This document shows positions 8,507 to 17,638 of a stretch of 64,000 bases of DNA, piece by piece. Each line of letters starts with the position of its first letter. The stretch's first letter is position 1. The notes beneath the pieces are model-generated. The model was not told where the DNA came from and made no database searches. It was given only the letters and a program-made list of their open reading frames with translations. The DNA comes from an uncultured Fodinibius sp. (GTDB taxonomy: Bacteria > Bacteroidota > Rhodothermia > Balneolales > Balneolaceae), in assembly GCA_913057775.1 (NCBI GenBank), contig CAJXOG010000006.1, positions 62,001 to 126,000 on the forward strand, read 5' to 3'. A program made the translations under genes and the position numbers.

Positions 8507-10471
8507 TTATCCGGCTTTCTTTTTCGCCTTAAAGCGATTAATAACACCACCGTGCAATACAGCTTCTTTTTGTCGCTCACTGAAGGTGTGTTTTACGGTA
8601 TATTTATTTCCTTTCGTCTTATTATGAATAACAACTTCATTGCCATTTTTTATAGCTTCTCGAATGTCATTCACTTCAAGAACATCTCCCTGATCAATAT
8701 CTTCGTAATCCGCATCATGCTCAAACTCTAACGGAGGAATGCCGAAGTTGATCAGGTTTTGCCAGCCAATACGAGCATAGCTTTTGGCTATTACAGCCCG
8801 CATGCCAAGGTATCGTGGTGCAATAGCTGCGTGCTCACGACTCGAACCCTGCGCATAGTTTTCACCTGCAATTACCACATGACCGTCATGTTCTTCTTTG
8901 GCTTCCATAGCACGATCGTGGAAATTTTTGTCCACAACATCCAGCGTAAATTTGCTAATTTCAGGGATGTTACTACGATATGGAAGCACTTCGGCTCCGG
9001 CACGAAGAATTTCATCGGTTGAAATATCATCACCCATCTTCAACAGAACAGGAACATCAAAGTCTTTCAACTCATCAAAGTCGGGCATAGTTGAAATATT
9101 CGGGCCCTTCTTAATTTCACCGCGTTCCTCCTGGGGTTTGGGTGGCGTCAGCATCTCAGTATTCACAACCAGCTTCTCTGGATGTTCGTACTTGGGATAT
9201 TTCATATTATAAAGATCTTCGAGATCACGAGGATCAGTTATCTTACCCGTCAGTGCAGAAGCTGCCGCTGTTTCAGGACTGACCAAGAACACTGAATCTT
9301 CAGGCGTTCCCGATCGATCAGGGAAGTTACGCGGAACAGTACGCAGGCTGTTCTGTCCTGATGCAGGCGCCTGTCCCATCCCGATACAACCGTTACAACC
9401 GGCTTGATGGATACGAGCACCGGATTGCACGAGATTATACATCACGTTGTTCTTGACCATATTTTCAATAATCTGCCGTGATGTAGGATTGATATCGTAC
9501 GAAACATTGTCATTAACCGTTTTATCCTTCACAATTTCAGAGGCCATCCAAAAATCCCGATAACCCGGATTTGCCGAAGAACCCACATAGGATTGATAGA
9601 TATCCTGACCTTCTACTTCGCGAACGGGAACAACATTACCCGGACTGCTGGGCAGAGCAACAAGCGGTTCTACATCATCCAGTACAAGTTCTTCGTATTT
9701 ATCATACTCAGCACCCTCATCCGCTTTCAGCTCAACAAATTCGTGACCGCGCTCTTGTGATTCCATAAAGCGACGCACTTCACCGTCAGCAGGAAATACC
9801 GTACTGGTTGCACCCATCTCAGTACCCATGTTCGCAATCACGTGACGGTCCATTGTGGAGAGGTTTTTCAAACCTTCTCCAAAGTATTCAATCACATATC
9901 CGGTTGCACCGTCAACATCATAACGACGCAGCATTTCGAGCACTACATCTTTAGCACTTACCCAGTCGGGTAACTCACCTTTTATCTCGACACCTAATAC
10001 TTTAGGCATTTTGATATAAAGCGGTTCACCGGCGATGGCAAAAGCAACATCCAAACCGCCTGAACCGATTGCGAGCATTCCCATACATCCTGATGCAGGA
10101 GTATGACTGTCGGAACCTGCTAATGTTTTTCCGGGAATGGCAAAACGTTCTGTTTCAATTGGATGGCTTACCCCATTACCCGGACGACTATACCACATAC
10201 CAAATCGTTCAGCAGCAGATTTAAGAAATACGTGGTCATCCGGATTTTTAAAGTCCGTTTGAATCAAATTGTGATCGACATATTGACACGACATTTCGGT
10301 TTGTGCCTCATCCAGTTCCATAGCCTCAAGTTCAAGCATCACCATAGTACCGGTGGCATCTTGCGTGAGGGTTTGATCAATTTTAAGACCAATTTCCTGG
10401 CCGGGAACCATTTCACCATCAACGAGATGGCTTTTGATTAGCTTCTCAGTAACATTAAGTGGTTTACTCAT
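8507..10471 (-). CDS. Aconitate hydratase (compact LeuC/LeuD-type)
   Basis: The 654-residue protein is an aconitase: it isomerises citrate to isocitrate through a [4Fe-4S] cluster. Cluster cysteines are in SGCMGMLAIG near residue 128 and in QAGCNGCIGMGQAP near residues 355-358. The C-terminal swivel domain has the QGSSREHAAIAPRYLG block. At 654 residues it is shorter than bacterial AcnA (about 890) or AcnB (about 850), matching the compact aconitase group close to isopropylmalate isomerase. The TPASG and cluster motifs and absence of leu genes nearby favour aconitase. It is monocistronic, ends at a strong terminator, and supplies isocitrate to the glyoxylate shunt genes found elsewhere in this window. 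Confidence 0.9.
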   Translation of the reverse strand: MSKPLNVTEKLIKSHLVDGEMVPGQEIGLKIDQTLTQDATGTMVMLELEAMELDEAQTEMSCQYVDHNLIQTDFKNPDDHVFLKSAAERFGMWYSRPGNGVSHPIETERFAIPGKTLAGSDSHTPASGCMGMLAIGSGGLDVAFAIAGEPLYIKMPKVLGVEIKGELPDWVSAKDVVLEMLRRYDVDGATGYVIEYFGEGLKNLSTMDRHVIANMGTEMGATSTVFPADGEVRRFMESQERGHEFVELKADEGAEYDKYEELVLDDVEPLVALPSSPGNVVPVREVEGQDIYQSYVGSSANPGYRDFWMASEIVKDKTVNDNVSYDINPTSRQIIENMVKNNVMYNLVQSGARIHQAGCNGCIGMGQAPASGQNSLRTVPRNFPDRSGTPEDSVFLVSPETAAASALTGKITDPRDLEDLYNMKYPKYEHPEKLVVNTEMLTPPKPQEERGEIKKGPNISTMPDFDELKDFDVPVLLKMGDDISTDEILRAGAEVLPYRSNIPEISKFTLDVVDKNFHDRAMEAKEEHDGHVVIAGENYAQGSSREHAAIAPRYLGMRAVIAKSYARIGWQNLINFGIPPLEFEHDADYEDIDQGDVLEVNDIREAIKNGNEVVIHNKTKGNKYTVKHTFSERQKEAVLHGGVINRFKAKKKAG

Positions 10472-10711
10472 AAATATTTTTGGATTTATTTCCGCTATAC
10501 AGTTGATTACACTAAAGTAAAATGCTTCAAAAATCGTTTCTTAAAATACCGGTTGACGCCCCTATTCTTCAAGTAAATGCACAAGAAATAATAATTTATA
10601 CATATTCTAAGCTATAGGTAGAAATATATACTTAGTTTTTAAAGTTTTTTTTCTTAATTAACGGTATCTCTATTGACAAAGTTATAAAGATAATCTGAGT
10701 TTAATATTCGT

Positions 10712-11005
10712 ATGAATACGAGCGATGTAGTAGCGATGCTTGCCAAAAATTGGGATATGACGCAAGTCGAAGCACGTGAATTATTAGATGTTATTACTCA
10801 GACATTAAGCGAAAATATTGCTACTGGTAATTCTTTCACGATACCAGAGCTGGGGACGTTTAGTGCTACTACTCGAAAAAAACGAAGATCTTATAATCCC
10901 CACTATGAGCAATATATGGAGTTACCTCCAAAACGGGTTGTTGATTTTAATCCCAGCAAGGGACTAAAAGAAGACTTCAAACAAGCGGATACAGACGATG
11001 AGTGA
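10712..11005 (+). CDS. HU/IHF-family DNA-binding protein
   Basis: The 97-residue protein has the HU/IHF fold: two N-terminal helices (TSDVVAMLAKN..., VEARELLDVITQTL), strands around GNSFTIPELGTFSATTRKKRRSYNPH, a beta-arm with the NP motif, and a C-terminal helix with a short acidic tail. It should bind and bend DNA as a dimer and contribute to nucleoid structure. The last 8 bases overlap the next gene, which itself begins with an HU domain, so the two are co-translated and may heterodimerise. The arm lacks the usual RNPxTG spelling (YNPHYEQYMELP), a modest divergence from housekeeping HU. Confidence 0.9.
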   Translation: MNTSDVVAMLAKNWDMTQVEARELLDVITQTLSENIATGNSFTIPELGTFSATTRKKRRSYNPHYEQYMELPPKRVVDFNPSKGLKEDFKQADTDDE

Positions 11006-12701
11006 AAAAGTTACATTTGGAGAACTTGTTGAGTCAATTGCTGAGGAAACGGAACACTCCAAGCAATTTACTCATGATTTTTTCAAGGATTTTGTAAACG
11101 TCATCAATGGCGGACTCGAAGAAGATGGCAAGGTAAATATTGCCGGCTTTGGAAAGTTTGAACTTCAACGCGTGGACGAACGCGAAGGATACAATCCGCA
11201 AACCGAGCAGAAGATAACCATTCCGGCCCACAATAAAGTAGTCTTCAAGCCCTACAAAGATCTCAGAGAGCTTGTAAATGCTCCCTATGCACATATGGAG
11301 CCGCAACTCATAGAAGAAGAGGATACTGAAACTTCTGATACTTCTCCTGATCATCAAACAATAGATTCCCAAACAGAAAAGTCTCGTATTGAGAGCGAAA
11401 GGAGCTCAGACGAAGAAACCGAACAATTAGAACAGGAAGAGAAGTCAGAACCTGATATTACAGAAACTTCAGAAGAGCAGGAACCCAATGAGGACGATTT
11501 CATTCCCACTGCTCCCCCCACTTCGCACAAACAAGATAACGAAGAAAACGAAGGCAATGGTAAGGATCAAGCAGAGGCAGACCAAGAATCTCCTTTTAAT
11601 TTTGGAGAACCGCAAGATTCGGATGAGAATACAGCAAAGTCCTCAACTTCTGAAAGTTCAGATGATGATGACAATGGTGATATTGTAGAATTCAATGCTA
11701 CACAGTTTGATGCTGAAGATGATCTCCTTGAAGAGTTCATCGGTTCAGAAGAATCAGAAGAAAAAGAACAGCAAGATGAGCACTCTGAAGATTTATCAGC
11801 AGAAGAAGAGCTTGAGTCAGAAAAAAATGAACCACACGAAAGTGAAGACGAACCGACCGAAACAGTATCAAGCGACGAAGATGACAAAGAGGACGAAACA
11901 ACAAAGTCTGAAGAAGAAGTTCTGGCAGAAGAAGTTGAAAAGCTTGAAGAAGCTGCTGAAAATTTAAAGCAGGATCAACCAGATCAGTCGGATCAAGAAG
12001 ATGAGGTGGCCCCCCTCCCCACTGCTGCAACAAGTCGTTCGTCCGACCGAAGTTCTTCATTTTCATACGTAGCAGCAGCTACAATTATTTTACTGCTCAT
12101 TGCCGGAGGAGCTTGGTATTACAGCACATTACCTGCAAATGATACTACCCTGATTTCTGAATCGGAAGAACCTACAGCCTCAGCTGATGCTACTAACCAA
12201 CAGAATAATAACAATCAACAACAGTCAGCAGAGCAAGGAGAGGCTGAAGACACTCAACAAGCAACACAAAATCAGTCGCAATCGGCAGCACAGTCTTCAG
12301 CAACCACGCAATCGACTAATAATACTACGCCCAAGAGTCAAGCTGTTGAAATTGAAAAAGGACAAACTTTATGGAGCCTGGCAGAGGAACGCTATGGAAA
12401 TCCTCGTTTGTGGCCCTGGATTTACGGCAACAATGGTTCTCTTAACGATCCCGATCTGATTTACGCCGGCAGTTCACTTGCAGTTCCGCTGCCTTCGGGC
12501 CCGCAAAACACCCTTACCGACACTGATTCGGTAGGTGTTGCAAAAGGATATATCGCCACTTACAAATGGTATAAAAGCAATGAGGAATCCAAAGCTAAAA
12601 ATCACCTTTGGGCTGCCAAGTTATATCACGATGATTTACAACAGCTAGCTGATGTACCCATAGATAAAACAGATCTTTCTTATGCCAACAAAGCCCGCTA
12701 A
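10998..12701 (+). CDS. HU-domain / acidic linker / transmembrane / LysM fusion protein
   Basis: This 567-residue protein has four parts. Residues 1-90 are an HU-type DNA-binding domain with the arm motif YNPQTEQKITIP and VVFKPYKDLREL. Residues about 95-345 are a long Glu/Asp/Ser-rich, low-complexity and strongly negative segment. Residues about 356-374 (YVAAATIILLLIAGGAWYY) are a single membrane helix. After a Gln/Asn/Ser/Thr-rich spacer, residues about 450-500 form a LysM-like domain (EIEKGQTLWSLAEERYGNPRLWPWIYGNN...LIYAGSSLAVP). The predicted topology is N-in/C-out, putting the HU domain on the chromosome side and LysM on the peptidoglycan side. It overlaps the HU gene by 8 bases. A DNA-to-cell-wall tether is inference; the domains are visible. 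Confidence 0.85.
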   Translation: MSEKVTFGELVESIAEETEHSKQFTHDFFKDFVNVINGGLEEDGKVNIAGFGKFELQRVDEREGYNPQTEQKITIPAHNKVVFKPYKDLRELVNAPYAHMEPQLIEEEDTETSDTSPDHQTIDSQTEKSRIESERSSDEETEQLEQEEKSEPDITETSEEQEPNEDDFIPTAPPTSHKQDNEENEGNGKDQAEADQESPFNFGEPQDSDENTAKSSTSESSDDDDNGDIVEFNATQFDAEDDLLEEFIGSEESEEKEQQDEHSEDLSAEEELESEKNEPHESEDEPTETVSSDEDDKEDETTKSEEEVLAEEVEKLEEAAENLKQDQPDQSDQEDEVAPLPTAATSRSSDRSSSFSYVAAATIILLLIAGGAWYYSTLPANDTTLISESEEPTASADATNQQNNNNQQQSAEQGEAEDTQQATQNQSQSAAQSSATTQSTNNTTPKSQAVEIEKGQTLWSLAEERYGNPRLWPWIYGNNGSLNDPDLIYAGSSLAVPLPSGPQNTLTDTDSVGVAKGYIATYKWYKSNEESKAKNHLWAAKLYHDDLQQLADVPIDKTDLSYANKAR

Positions 12702-12770
12702 CGGTTAGTTTGGCAAACCTTAGACCTTTAAATAAAATTTATAATAAAAGCACACCATAGGAGTAAACAT

Positions 12771-13091
12771 ATGATTCGTCACGTAGTAATGTGGAAATTG
12801 AAAGAGGAAGCGGAAGGTGCCACCAAGGAAAAGAATGCCGAAAAAATGAAACTTATCTTGGAGGGGCTAAAAGTAAATATTGATGAAATTAAAAATGTGG
12901 AAGTTGGAATCAATATTTCTGATGATGATGACGAAGCGGGTTCACCGTTTGATGTAGTGCTGATCTCGGATTTTGAAACCGAACTGGACTACACCATGTA
13001 TACAAGGGATGAAAATCACAAAAAGGCCGTTAAGTTTATTAACTCGGTTATCGAAAAACGCCACTTTGTCGATTACAAAGTAGATACCTAA
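12771..13091 (+). CDS. Dabb (stress-response alpha/beta-barrel) domain protein
   Basis: The 106-residue protein matches the Dabb family: it opens with IRHVVMWKLKEEAEG, has a central helix, the strand NVEVGINIS, and ends with a His-rich helix/strand block (YTRDENHKKAVKFIN...RHFVDYKV). These small proteins form dimeric ferredoxin-like barrels; some are stress-induced, some act as cyclases, and most have no known reaction. An AGGAG Shine-Dalgarno sequence lies at 12759-12763, 7 bases before the ATG, unusually clear for this window and supporting the start. It is monocistronic and ends at a strong terminator. Confidence 0.85.
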   Translation: MIRHVVMWKLKEEAEGATKEKNAEKMKLILEGLKVNIDEIKNVEVGINISDDDDEAGSPFDVVLISDFETELDYTMYTRDENHKKAVKFINSVIEKRHFVDYKVDT

Positions 13092-13118
13092 CAGTTGATA
13101 AATACAATATTATTCAGA

Positions 13119-13150
13119 GCAGGGGTTTCTACCATAAGCCCCTGCTTTTT
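13119..13150 (+). terminator. Intrinsic terminator after the Dabb gene
   Basis: GCAGGGG (13119-13125) and CCCCTGC (13139-13145) form a hairpin followed by TTTTTTATTTT. It separates the Dabb gene from the convergent amidotransferase-like gene; the last T residues overlap that gene's stop codon. Confidence 0.85.
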
Positions 13151-13947
13151 TATTTTCTCATCCTTACTCTGGCTTCTGTTACCAACTGTTTAAAAATACG
13201 TCGCTGTGCAGGTATCTGCGGCATATATTCAGGATGCCACTGTACACCCAATATAAAATTCCGTTCTGTATGCTCAACTGCTTGTACAATTCCATTTTCT
13301 TCGCACGCAACAATAGATAGCTGCTTTCCAAGCTTATCCACCGCCTGATGATGCAGTGCATTCACCCAAACCTTGGGAAAACCCAGAAGATCATACAGCC
13401 TACTCTGCTCGTCCACCTTCACCCTCTTTTTGGGCCATACACTATGTACCCTGGGCACTTCGGTATAGTAGTTCGCAATATCCTGATGAAGAGTACCCCC
13501 GAAATAAATATTTAACAATTGAGCTCCTCTGCATATACCCAAGATGGGGATATTTTTATCTACTGCTTGTTTAATCAGATCAAACTCGAGTTCGTCACGA
13601 TTGTTATCTATATCCTCTGATGATGCTGAAAAAATCTTCCGCACTAAGTATATGATTGGAAAAAATAAAACGGTCAACAAGTAGGTAAAAAATTTGTGCA
13701 GACTGGATACTTTTTCATCCTTCAAAAAAAGGTCACGAATATCTTCCGCCCCGTATCGTTTCGGATTAATATCGGCGCCCCCTCCAATGATAAGTCCGTG
13801 AATATCTGCATCAGGCAGTCCTTTTTGTGGATGGATACGAATAGCCCGCCCCCCATGCAAAAACACGGCAAACCAGGTAAACCACCAGGCTGCACGGCCT
13901 CCTTTATCGGGTCCCGTCACCCCAATATTTGGTCTATGCTTGGTCAT
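13150..13947 (-). CDS. Peptidase C26 / class I glutamine amidotransferase-like protein with hydrophobic insertion
   Basis: The 265-residue protein has the gamma-glutamyl hydrolase-type class I amidotransferase core: the GLIIGGGADINP strand, the nucleophile elbow ILGICRGAQLLN (Cys139) and the His-Glu block QWHPEYMP near the C-terminus. Relatives hydrolyse gamma-glutamyl bonds (PuuD, folate hydrolases) or supply ammonia. It is unusual in having a strongly hydrophobic segment, about residues 87-105, where homologues have a short charged loop. This could be a membrane-dipping element. Its start overlaps the end of the amidoligase gene by 14 bases, so the two form an operon. A joint role in making and cleaving amide-linked compounds is inference. 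Confidence 0.85.
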   Translation of the reverse strand: MTKHRPNIGVTGPDKGGRAAWWFTWFAVFLHGGRAIRIHPQKGLPDADIHGLIIGGGADINPKRYGAEDIRDLFLKDEKVSSLHKFFTYLLTVLFFPIIYLVRKIFSASSEDIDNNRDELEFDLIKQAVDKNIPILGICRGAQLLNIYFGGTLHQDIANYYTEVPRVHSVWPKKRVKVDEQSRLYDLLGFPKVWVNALHHQAVDKLGKQLSIVACEENGIVQAVEHTERNFILGVQWHPEYMPQIPAQRRIFKQLVTEARVRMRK

Positions 13948-15050: not shown

Positions 15051-16346
15051 ATGAAACGACTCATCCGGCTAAGTCTACTGCTGATCTTCCTCTTACCCAT
15101 CATGTCGGTAGCCCAGCCAACCAAAGTTTTTAAAGGAGCCAAAATCATCCCTATAAGTAGCGAACCTATTGCCAATGGTGTACTTGTAACCAAAGGGGAT
15201 AAAATTGTTGCTGTGGGATCGGAGGGCGAAGTTGAGATTCCATCCAATGCAAAAGAATTCGATGTGTCCGGCAAGGTTATTATGCCGGGTCTTGTGGACT
15301 CTCATTCCCATATTGGAGATGGCGATGGCGGCGATCGCTCTGCAGCACTTCACCCCGATGCGCGTATTATCGACAGCATTGATCCGCATAGCGAAACATT
15401 CAAAAAAGCACTGGCCGGAGGAGTTACAACGGTAAATGTAATGCCCGGCTCGGGACACTTAATGAGTGGACAAACAGCCTATCTAAAACTTCGCAATGCG
15501 GATAAAATTGAGGAAATGCTTTTTGTAGATGATCCGCAAAACAAGATAGCCGGAGGACTCAAAATGGCAAACGGTACCAACTCCATAGGGGATCCTCCTT
15601 TCCCGGGCACACGTGCAAAATCAGCATCAATGGTTCGGGAGCTATTTATAAAAGCGCAAGCCTACAAAGAAAAAGTCGAACAGGCTAACGGAGATCCCGA
15701 AAAAATGCCCAAGCGCGATGTAGGTATGGATGCGCTAGTTGAGGTACTAGACGGTGAGCGTATCGTCCACTATCATACGCACCGACATTACGATATACTC
15801 ACTGCTATTCGACTGGCCGAAGAGTTTGGATTTCGTATGGTGTTACATCATGTAAGCGAAGCATGGAAAATTGCCGATGAAATTGCGGAAGCTGATTTTC
15901 CTGCATCCATCATTGTACTCGATGCTCCCGGTGGAAAACCTGAAGCTACTGACATAAGATACGAAAACGGGGCTGTACTTGAGGAAGCAGGAGTAACAGT
16001 CGGCTATCATACAGACGCTTCTATTACCGATACAAGGCTGTTTTTGCGATCCGGAGCATTTGGTGTTCGTGCAGGGATGAGTCGCGATGCAGCACTCAAG
16101 GCACTGACTATCCAAAATGCCAAGATGATGGATCTGCAAGATCGGGTGGGAACGCTAGAAGCCGGTAAAGATGCCGACTTTATAGTTTTATCCGGCGATC
16201 CGCTGAGCGTCTATACAAAAGTTGAACAAACATGGGTTGAAGGTATTAAGCGATTCGATTATTCAAACCCTAAAGATCGCAAGTATTCCACCGGCGGCTA
16301 TGATGTATTTAGAGGTTCGGCTCACAATCATCACGGTGATAAATAA
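15051..16346 (+). CDS. Exported metal-dependent amidohydrolase
   Basis: The 431-residue protein has a signal peptide (MKRLIRLSLLLIFLLPIMSVAQ) and the composite amidohydrolase fold: an N-terminal beta-sandwich, GLVDSHSHIG metal motif (HxH), further histidines in VHYHTHRHYD and LHHVSE, the catalytic Asp in GYHTDASI, and the C-terminal GTLEAGKDADFIVLSGDP strand pair. This is the imidazolonepropionase/dipeptidase-like branch common in Bacteroidota, usually annotated only as amidohydrolase. It should be periplasmic and act on a cyclic amide or dipeptide. The tail ends in a His-rich sequence (HNHHGDK). The next gene is a paralogue that has lost the metal ligands; the two likely work together. Confidence 0.88.
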   Translation: MKRLIRLSLLLIFLLPIMSVAQPTKVFKGAKIIPISSEPIANGVLVTKGDKIVAVGSEGEVEIPSNAKEFDVSGKVIMPGLVDSHSHIGDGDGGDRSAALHPDARIIDSIDPHSETFKKALAGGVTTVNVMPGSGHLMSGQTAYLKLRNADKIEEMLFVDDPQNKIAGGLKMANGTNSIGDPPFPGTRAKSASMVRELFIKAQAYKEKVEQANGDPEKMPKRDVGMDALVEVLDGERIVHYHTHRHYDILTAIRLAEEFGFRMVLHHVSEAWKIADEIAEADFPASIIVLDAPGGKPEATDIRYENGAVLEEAGVTVGYHTDASITDTRLFLRSGAFGVRAGMSRDAALKALTIQNAKMMDLQDRVGTLEAGKDADFIVLSGDPLSVYTKVEQTWVEGIKRFDYSNPKDRKYSTGGYDVFRGSAHNHHGDK

Positions 16347-16426
16347 TGCACTGCTATTAAAACCCAAATGCAATGTTGCGTTTGATCCAACATCTTCAAG
16401 AATTTAAGCTTCAAAAAATTAGGACT

Positions 16427-17638
16427 ATGAAAAAACGAATTACACTTTTTGTATTTGCACTACTACTTGGATTAAGTACCGTTGCACAAGCCCAAGTGGC
16501 TGTGCAGGCTGATACGCTTTACACCATGGAAGGCGACAAGATTGTAAATGGTATTGTCCTTATCACTAACGACAAGATTGAAGCAGTGGGCTCAGCCTCA
16601 CAAATTGAAATCCCATCTGATTATGAAACCCATCAGGCTTCGGTTGTTACGCCGGGTTTAGTGGATGCGCACAGCGTGGTAGGACTGGCGGGAATATACA
16701 ATCGGGATGATGATCAGGATCAATTGGAGACTTCAGATCCTATCCAACCCGAACTGCGAGCCATTGATGCCTACAACGCCCGTGAGCAACTGGTGAAATT
16801 TGTCCTCGATAAAGGAGTAACGACGACCCATACAGGTCACGGTCCCGGAGCCTTAGCCAGCGGACAAACGATGATTGCCAAAACGCCTTATAACACGGTT
16901 GAAGATGCACTCGTAGATTCCGCAACCACCGTCGCCTTTACACTTGGCTCTACCGTTGGACGTTATTTTGACAGCCCCGGCACAAGTGCCAAAGGGATTG
17001 CGATGCTCCGGCAAAAGTTTATTGATGCGCAGGAATACCTCGAAAAACGTCAGGCTGACGACCCCGATAAGCGTCCCGCAAAAGATTTAAAAATGGAAGC
17101 CATGGCTGATGTACTCAATGGCGAACTTACGGCCTTGATAACCGCTCAGCGTTCTAACGATATTATGTCGGCCCTGCGACTGCAGGAAGAATTCGGCTTT
17201 GATATGATTCTGGACGGAGCGGCCGAAGCATATTTATTATTAGATGAAATCAAGAAAGCCGGAGTACCGGTTATTATTCATCCCACCATGGTACGCACCT
17301 ATGGTGCTACCCAGAACGCCAGCTTTACTACAGCCAGTAAATTAGCGGAAGCAGGTATTCCCTTTGCTTTTCAAAGCGGATTTGAAAGTTATGTACCTAA
17401 AACCCGAATTATTCTCTACGAAGCGGCCATCGCCACCAGTTATGGACTTGAGCGAGAAAAAGCTTTGTATGCGCTGACCAAAGCTCCCGCAGAAATTCTG
17501 GGAATATCTAACCGTGTTGGATCGCTGGCGGAAGGTAAAGACGCTGATCTCGTACTATTTGACGGGGACCCACTTGAATATACGACCCATATTAGTTCTG
17601 TAATCGTAGACGGAAAAGTCGTAAAGGAAAAAGAGTAG
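16427..17638 (+). CDS. Exported amidohydrolase-like pseudoenzyme
   Basis: From the ATG at 16427 the protein has 403 residues and a clear signal peptide (MKKRITLFVFALLLGLSTVAQAQ); an in-frame ATG at 16373 adds 18 residues and hides that signal. It aligns throughout with the upstream amidohydrolase, including the C-terminal GSLAEGKDADLVLFDGDP block. The metal sites are gone: GLVDSHSHIG becomes GLVDAHSVVG, VHYHTHRHYD becomes LITAQRSND, LHHVSEAW becomes LDGAAEAY, and GYHTDA becomes FAFQSGF. I therefore predict no metal-dependent hydrolysis. It may bind substrate or stabilise the active paralogue 80 bases upstream. A terminator follows. Confidence 0.85.
   Translation: MKKRITLFVFALLLGLSTVAQAQVAVQADTLYTMEGDKIVNGIVLITNDKIEAVGSASQIEIPSDYETHQASVVTPGLVDAHSVVGLAGIYNRDDDQDQLETSDPIQPELRAIDAYNAREQLVKFVLDKGVTTTHTGHGPGALASGQTMIAKTPYNTVEDALVDSATTVAFTLGSTVGRYFDSPGTSAKGIAMLRQKFIDAQEYLEKRQADDPDKRPAKDLKMEAMADVLNGELTALITAQRSNDIMSALRLQEEFGFDMILDGAAEAYLLLDEIKKAGVPVIIHPTMVRTYGATQNASFTTASKLAEAGIPFAFQSGFESYVPKTRIILYEAAIATSYGLEREKALYALTKAPAEILGISNRVGSLAEGKDADLVLFDGDPLEYTTHISSVIVDGKVVKEKE

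Follow-up and report, generated by a model that had tools for sequence, protein, structure and literature searches.

A conserved gene pair of Bacteroidota, an HU-family protein with an HU-LysM membrane fusion, as a probable link between chromosome and envelope

Two overlapping genes in the window (the whole 64,000-nucleotide stretch of DNA analysed here) encode a small HU-family protein and a larger protein in which a second HU domain is joined, through an acidic linker and a single membrane helix, to a LysM domain. The same pair recurs in the window's family and in many Bacteroidales, and its probable role is to link the chromosome with the envelope. Chromosome placement and segregation in the Bacteroidota are, to our knowledge, little described, and no description of the HU-LysM architecture was found in a search of open-access papers.

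Both genes lie on the forward strand. The upstream gene (10712..11005) encodes the partner HU of 97 residues (Pfam PF00216, E = 2.3e-19), and its open reading frame overlaps that of the fusion (10998..12701; 567 residues), a gene recognized from its reading frame, domain matches and predicted structure, by exactly 8 bases, as the earlier note had read it. The fused HU domain (residues 1–96; 10998..11285) matches PF00216 with an E-value of 2.3e-24. Both HU proteins far exceed the cut-off of that model, and HU/IHF structures are the matches of the fused domain by profile and by predicted fold, which bears out the assignment of an N-terminal HU. The fused HU has its DNA arm at residues 62–80 (11181..11237), as located in an alignment of relatives (A1), where the wedge proline, Pro67, is invariant in the 28 rows of the window's family. 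The partner arm is basic (RKKRRSYNPHY), with Pro63 as the wedge. Both proteins carry the β-arm of HU/IHF, with the wedge motif NPQT in the fused HU and NPHY in the partner.

The cytoplasmic linker that follows (residues 98–353; 11289..12056) is predicted to be disordered, and 96 of its 256 residues (38%) are Asp or Glu, giving a net charge of −81. The earlier description of an acidic linker of about 250 residues holds in the window but not generally, since linkers of homologues range from 52 to 371 residues and from 16 to 43% Asp plus Glu; the form with about 250 residues and 38% acidic content is typical of close relatives only. One unusually long fusion of 721 residues (L104:2842-5007, genome G601) has about 370 residues of cytosolic linker. 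The transmembrane helix (residues 354–377; 12057..12128), with its core at 354–372, was assigned from hydrophobicity and predicted structure. No second transmembrane segment was found in the fusion protein, in agreement with the one helix proposed before. Beyond the membrane lie a periplasmic linker rich in Gln, Asn and Ser, assigned from composition and predicted structure (residues 378–444; 12129..12329), the LysM domain (residues 445–497; 12330..12488) and a C-terminal helical extension defined by the alignment of relatives and the model (residues 498–567; 12489..12698). AlphaFold, given 28 aligned relatives, predicts the HU and C-terminal domains with confidence and the linker as disordered. 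The extension, on which the earlier note was silent, is conserved across the family, where it has a long or a short form; no known domain matched either form, the structure comparisons having addressed mainly the LysM part.

The charges flanking the membrane helix suggest how the protein is oriented. In the window, the helix has Arg on its N-terminal side and no Lys or Arg within 15 residues on its C-terminal side. Of 155 homologues, 134 have more Lys and Arg in the 15 residues that precede the helix than in those that follow it, 13 have equal numbers and 8 have fewer. This positive-inside bias would place HU inside and LysM outside, and thus supports the N-in/C-out topology that had been proposed. 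The periplasmic linker, which spans 21–149 residues across homologues (median about 70), should in general be long enough to reach the wall.

Recognition of the LysM domain depended on profiles and structure, as Pfam by itself gives no LysM: the fusion protein of the window is not listed at the cut-off of the Pfam LysM model, nor does it have a Pfam match to SPOR. LysM-type models of NCBIfam do match its C-terminus, the best being Kbp/PRK11198 (E = 6.4e-9), and the profile of the family retrieves LysM domains of the PDB (E = 2e-11), with Kbp again the best. Modelled alone, the C-terminal part has a pLDDT of 93 and the β-α-α-β order of the LysM fold. When the model was superposed on LysM structures (VIA), the top rows were LysM domains with Z-scores of 7.2 to 5.0, although a Z below 8 does not settle the matter by itself. 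The LysM-like domain of the earlier reading is therefore upheld by models, profiles and superposition. In relatives, the domain likewise falls mostly under the Pfam cut-off (that of locus L090, at 22.6 bits, is above it), so that domain surveys would miss it and display just an HU domain plus an unknown region.

The architecture is widespread. A search for it across the Balneolota, as advised earlier, succeeds in the window's family but is too narrow in scope. With a profile of the LysM end, 74 of 92 genomes of this family were matched at full strength, and the 37 genomes sampled from sister families within the order gave no such match; a search of the Bacteroidales found the HU-TM-LysM architecture in 32 of 247 genomes, distributed over 16 families. 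Strong matches of the LysM profile among 394 genomes of the phylum were confined to the window's family and families f48 and f55. In a phylum-wide HU search, in which ordinary HU dominates the matches listed, the listed long-frame matches outside the window's family have the same architecture and the same upstream HU. Scanning GTDB representatives with one Bacteroidales LysM motif, a query that undercounts other lineages, yielded 443 relatives confirmed by tblastn, and 80 were kept (Coprobacter, Barnesiella, Dysgonomonas, Muribaculaceae, Paludibacter, Prevotellaceae and other Bacteroidales). The fusion is intact in all 80, and the HU partner lies inside the first distance limit in 78; the remaining two have an HU reading frame slightly farther upstream.

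From the window's family and the Bacteroidales together, we extracted 155 pairs of HU and HU-TM-LysM genes. The partner lies directly upstream of the fusion in every one (155/155), with overlaps mostly of 4, 8 or 11 bases, and an identical layout in 155 loci is more than chance would give. Two broken fusion genes were seen, one with its LysM end in a different frame (L051:6709-7915, genome G024) and one with a reading frame that ends after 147 residues (L131:4277-4720, genome G700), through sequencing error or decay.

A tree of 69 rows unites the fused HU domains of the two lineages (support 99/98) and separately unites the partners (98/94), which lie apart from ordinary HU. Based on these two groupings, the pair most likely has a single origin. 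Its genomic sites vary: it is found with aconitase and Dabb genes, with hemW and a carbonic-anhydrase-like gene, or with ftsY-rimO upstream and moxR downstream. Judged by these gene orders, the two genes most likely stayed together through changing surroundings. In four Bacteroidales loci (L089-L092), the pair follows ftsY-rimO and precedes moxR and Bat-like (aerotolerance) cluster genes. No functional hint from neighbouring genes emerged across the contexts seen. In four congeners, the aconitase and Dabb genes are adjacent, and the roughly 390–430 bp that separate them contain neither HU gene, which indicates that the two HU genes are missing as a unit. The pair may have been present ancestrally and later lost in places, or it may have been transferred as a unit. 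The pair is dispensable, as it is missing from these four congeners and from all 37 sampled genomes of sister families. An Rfam search of positions 10200-13200 found nothing, and PADLOC gave no link of the HU pair to defence. Farther downstream, the window contains two tandem genes that by eye resemble secreted amidohydrolases (15051-16346 and 16373-17638).

HU acts as a dimer, and the pair shares its fold, arm motif and PF00216 membership with HU/IHF proteins (HupA/HupB and IHF α/β), including two unlike subunits as in IHF; here, however, one subunit adds a linker, a transmembrane helix and a LysM domain. The subunits differ further in the Bacteroidales. The fused HU has Val or Ile in place of the DNA-wedging proline in 105 of 112 cases, and there departs from the NP arm of HU/IHF, and the partner keeps the proline in 109 of 112; the net charge is about +6 for the partner and about 0 for the fused HU. 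Proline is present in both arms in 41 of 43 pairs of the window's family. The whole DNA arm is deleted in five fused HUs (L078, L178, L193, L204 and L205), whose partners have arm net charges of 0, 1, −2, 1 and 0, compared with a mean of 4.4, and the partner arms of other Bacteroidales all carry 3 or more; these counts ignore shared ancestry and perhaps represent two or three independent events. Such a division of labour, together with the joint decay of the arms, fits a heterodimer well, and we infer that the partner and the fused HU form one mixed dimer. The mixed dimer suggested by the earlier note has thus gained indirect support: the two genes are always linked, are inherited together and go missing together, and their arms have decayed jointly.

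The genome of the window also encodes a fusion of related design. HU-TM-SPOR and CCDC81-type HU fusions of Bacteroidota were reportedly described by Burroughs et al. in 2017, and the earlier statement that HU-SPOR fusions occur in related bacteria proved true of this very genome (L088:7220-8374, equivalent to C3:79219-80373). The protein has the same order of N-terminal HU, acidic linker, one transmembrane helix and C-terminal domain of a wall-binding type, but with SPOR instead of LysM, an armless HU and no adjoining HU partner seen. Its gene adjoins ExbB/ExbD/TonB-like genes. Open frames of HU-TM-SPOR homologues reach 760 residues, and several relatives have more than one match per genome. 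Unlike the HU-LysM pair, HU-TM-SPOR has matches almost throughout the order (119 of 127 genomes). We considered whether the two fusions are complementary, and rejected this, as almost every genome carries the SPOR fusion, with or without the LysM pair.

The nearest working analogue of the HU-LysM fusion is HubP of Vibrio, by analogy and not by homology. HubP has a periplasmic LysM, one transmembrane helix and an acidic cytosolic region, and controls the origin of chromosome 1 via ParA1; its LysM is both necessary and sufficient for polar targeting (PMC8789113). The LysM of FimV binds sacculi (PMC12918733). The periplasmic LysM, single helix and long, acidic and disordered cytosolic region are common to HubP/FimV and the fusion, whose topology is here assigned by the charge rule. 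The order is different: LysM is N-terminal and a TPR (FimV) domain forms the cytosolic C-terminus in HubP/FimV, whereas the fusion has LysM at its C-terminus and HU at its cytosolic end. HubP reaches DNA through ParA, whereas the fusion carries a DNA-binding fold of its own.

With modest confidence, we favour a model in which the products of the two genes act together as a single machine, an HU heterodimer that is fastened to peptidoglycan and serves as an anchor for the nucleoid. The fusion would be the half of the dimer fixed across the inner membrane to peptidoglycan, and the partner would be the other half, contributing at least its share of the grip on DNA. The HU pair is expected to bind DNA, and the mixed dimer would sit on the chromosome with no strong preference for particular sequences. 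The acidic disordered linker may provide reach for the dimer and repel it from the anionic membrane and from DNA. On the other side, the periplasmic linker would extend to the wall, where the LysM domain may bind the GlcNAc-containing glycan of peptidoglycan. The outcome would be many weak nucleoid-wall anchors with a part in chromosome positioning or segregation, perhaps gathered where the wall has sites for LysM, such as the septum or poles. The SPOR fusion in the same genome counts for the tether to the wall. The acidic fused HU (net −4 to −8) and about neutral partner in the window's genus count against the tether to DNA, and so do the five armless fused HUs, which imply that tight DNA binding is not required in every lineage. 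The likeness of the LysM to potassium-binding Kbp, the dispensability of the pair and its uninformative gene neighbours also weigh against the model.

It follows from the armless members that a DNA role should not be assumed for every protein of the family, and that HU may be a protein-protein module in some lineages. Extended to the family as a whole, the HU fold would be a membrane scaffold to which other proteins, or free HU, are drawn, instead of contacting DNA directly, and CCDC81-type HU domains are said to have been proposed for such a role. We regard this as unlikely. Arm loss in five fused HUs, accompanied by a decayed arm in the partner but by no other loss, replacement of the wedge proline in the Bacteroidales, and the armless HU of the SPOR fusion are all in its favour; against these, the arm is present in about 150 of 155 fused HUs, partners retain the proline and basic arms, and nearly all pairs of the window's family have the proline on both sides. 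The pair could also be dismissed as an accidental fusion or an annotation artefact devoid of function, given its absence from some congeners. That reading is scarcely credible, and is refuted by conservation of the architecture: the layout is the same in two distant lineages of low sequence identity, with a constant partner.

A DNA-binding fold inside, a domain of ligand-binding type outside and one helix between them are also what a membrane-bound regulator of the ToxR/CadC one-component type would have, with LysM sensing the state of the wall and HU altering local DNA bending or transcription. This is improbable, as HU is not very selective for sequence, the genomic contexts seen share no constant target or neighbouring gene, and a long disordered linker would poorly relay a conformational signal. 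Similarly, we give little weight to the idea that the LysM binds potassium or a protein partner in place of peptidoglycan, within an envelope sensor or some other complex. It derives from Kbp (YgaU), the best solved match by profile and fold and a potassium-binding BON+LysM protein, which unlike the fusion has neither HU nor a transmembrane helix. However, chitin- or GlcNAc-binding LysM structures superpose nearly as well as the best matches (Z of 5–6 compared with 6–7), LysM of the topologically similar HubP/FimV binds peptidoglycan, and SPOR occupies the equivalent place in the HU fusion of the same genome.

For the Bacteroidota, the anchoring model would give the pair a role in nucleoid positioning. 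We advance more tentatively the broader proposal that many of these bacteria have a dedicated heterodimeric HU, of which one subunit spans the membrane and is bound to peptidoglycan, so that a single chain would link nucleoid and wall without intermediaries of the ParA/ParB type. An HU pair in which one subunit lacks the DNA wedge is, in addition, a useful case for the origin of IHF-like asymmetry. As a conserved two-gene module that combines a DNA-packaging fold with a wall-binding fold, the pair makes a direct nucleoid-wall link testable, and the cultured carriers Coprobacter, Barnesiella and Dysgonomonas open that link to experiment.
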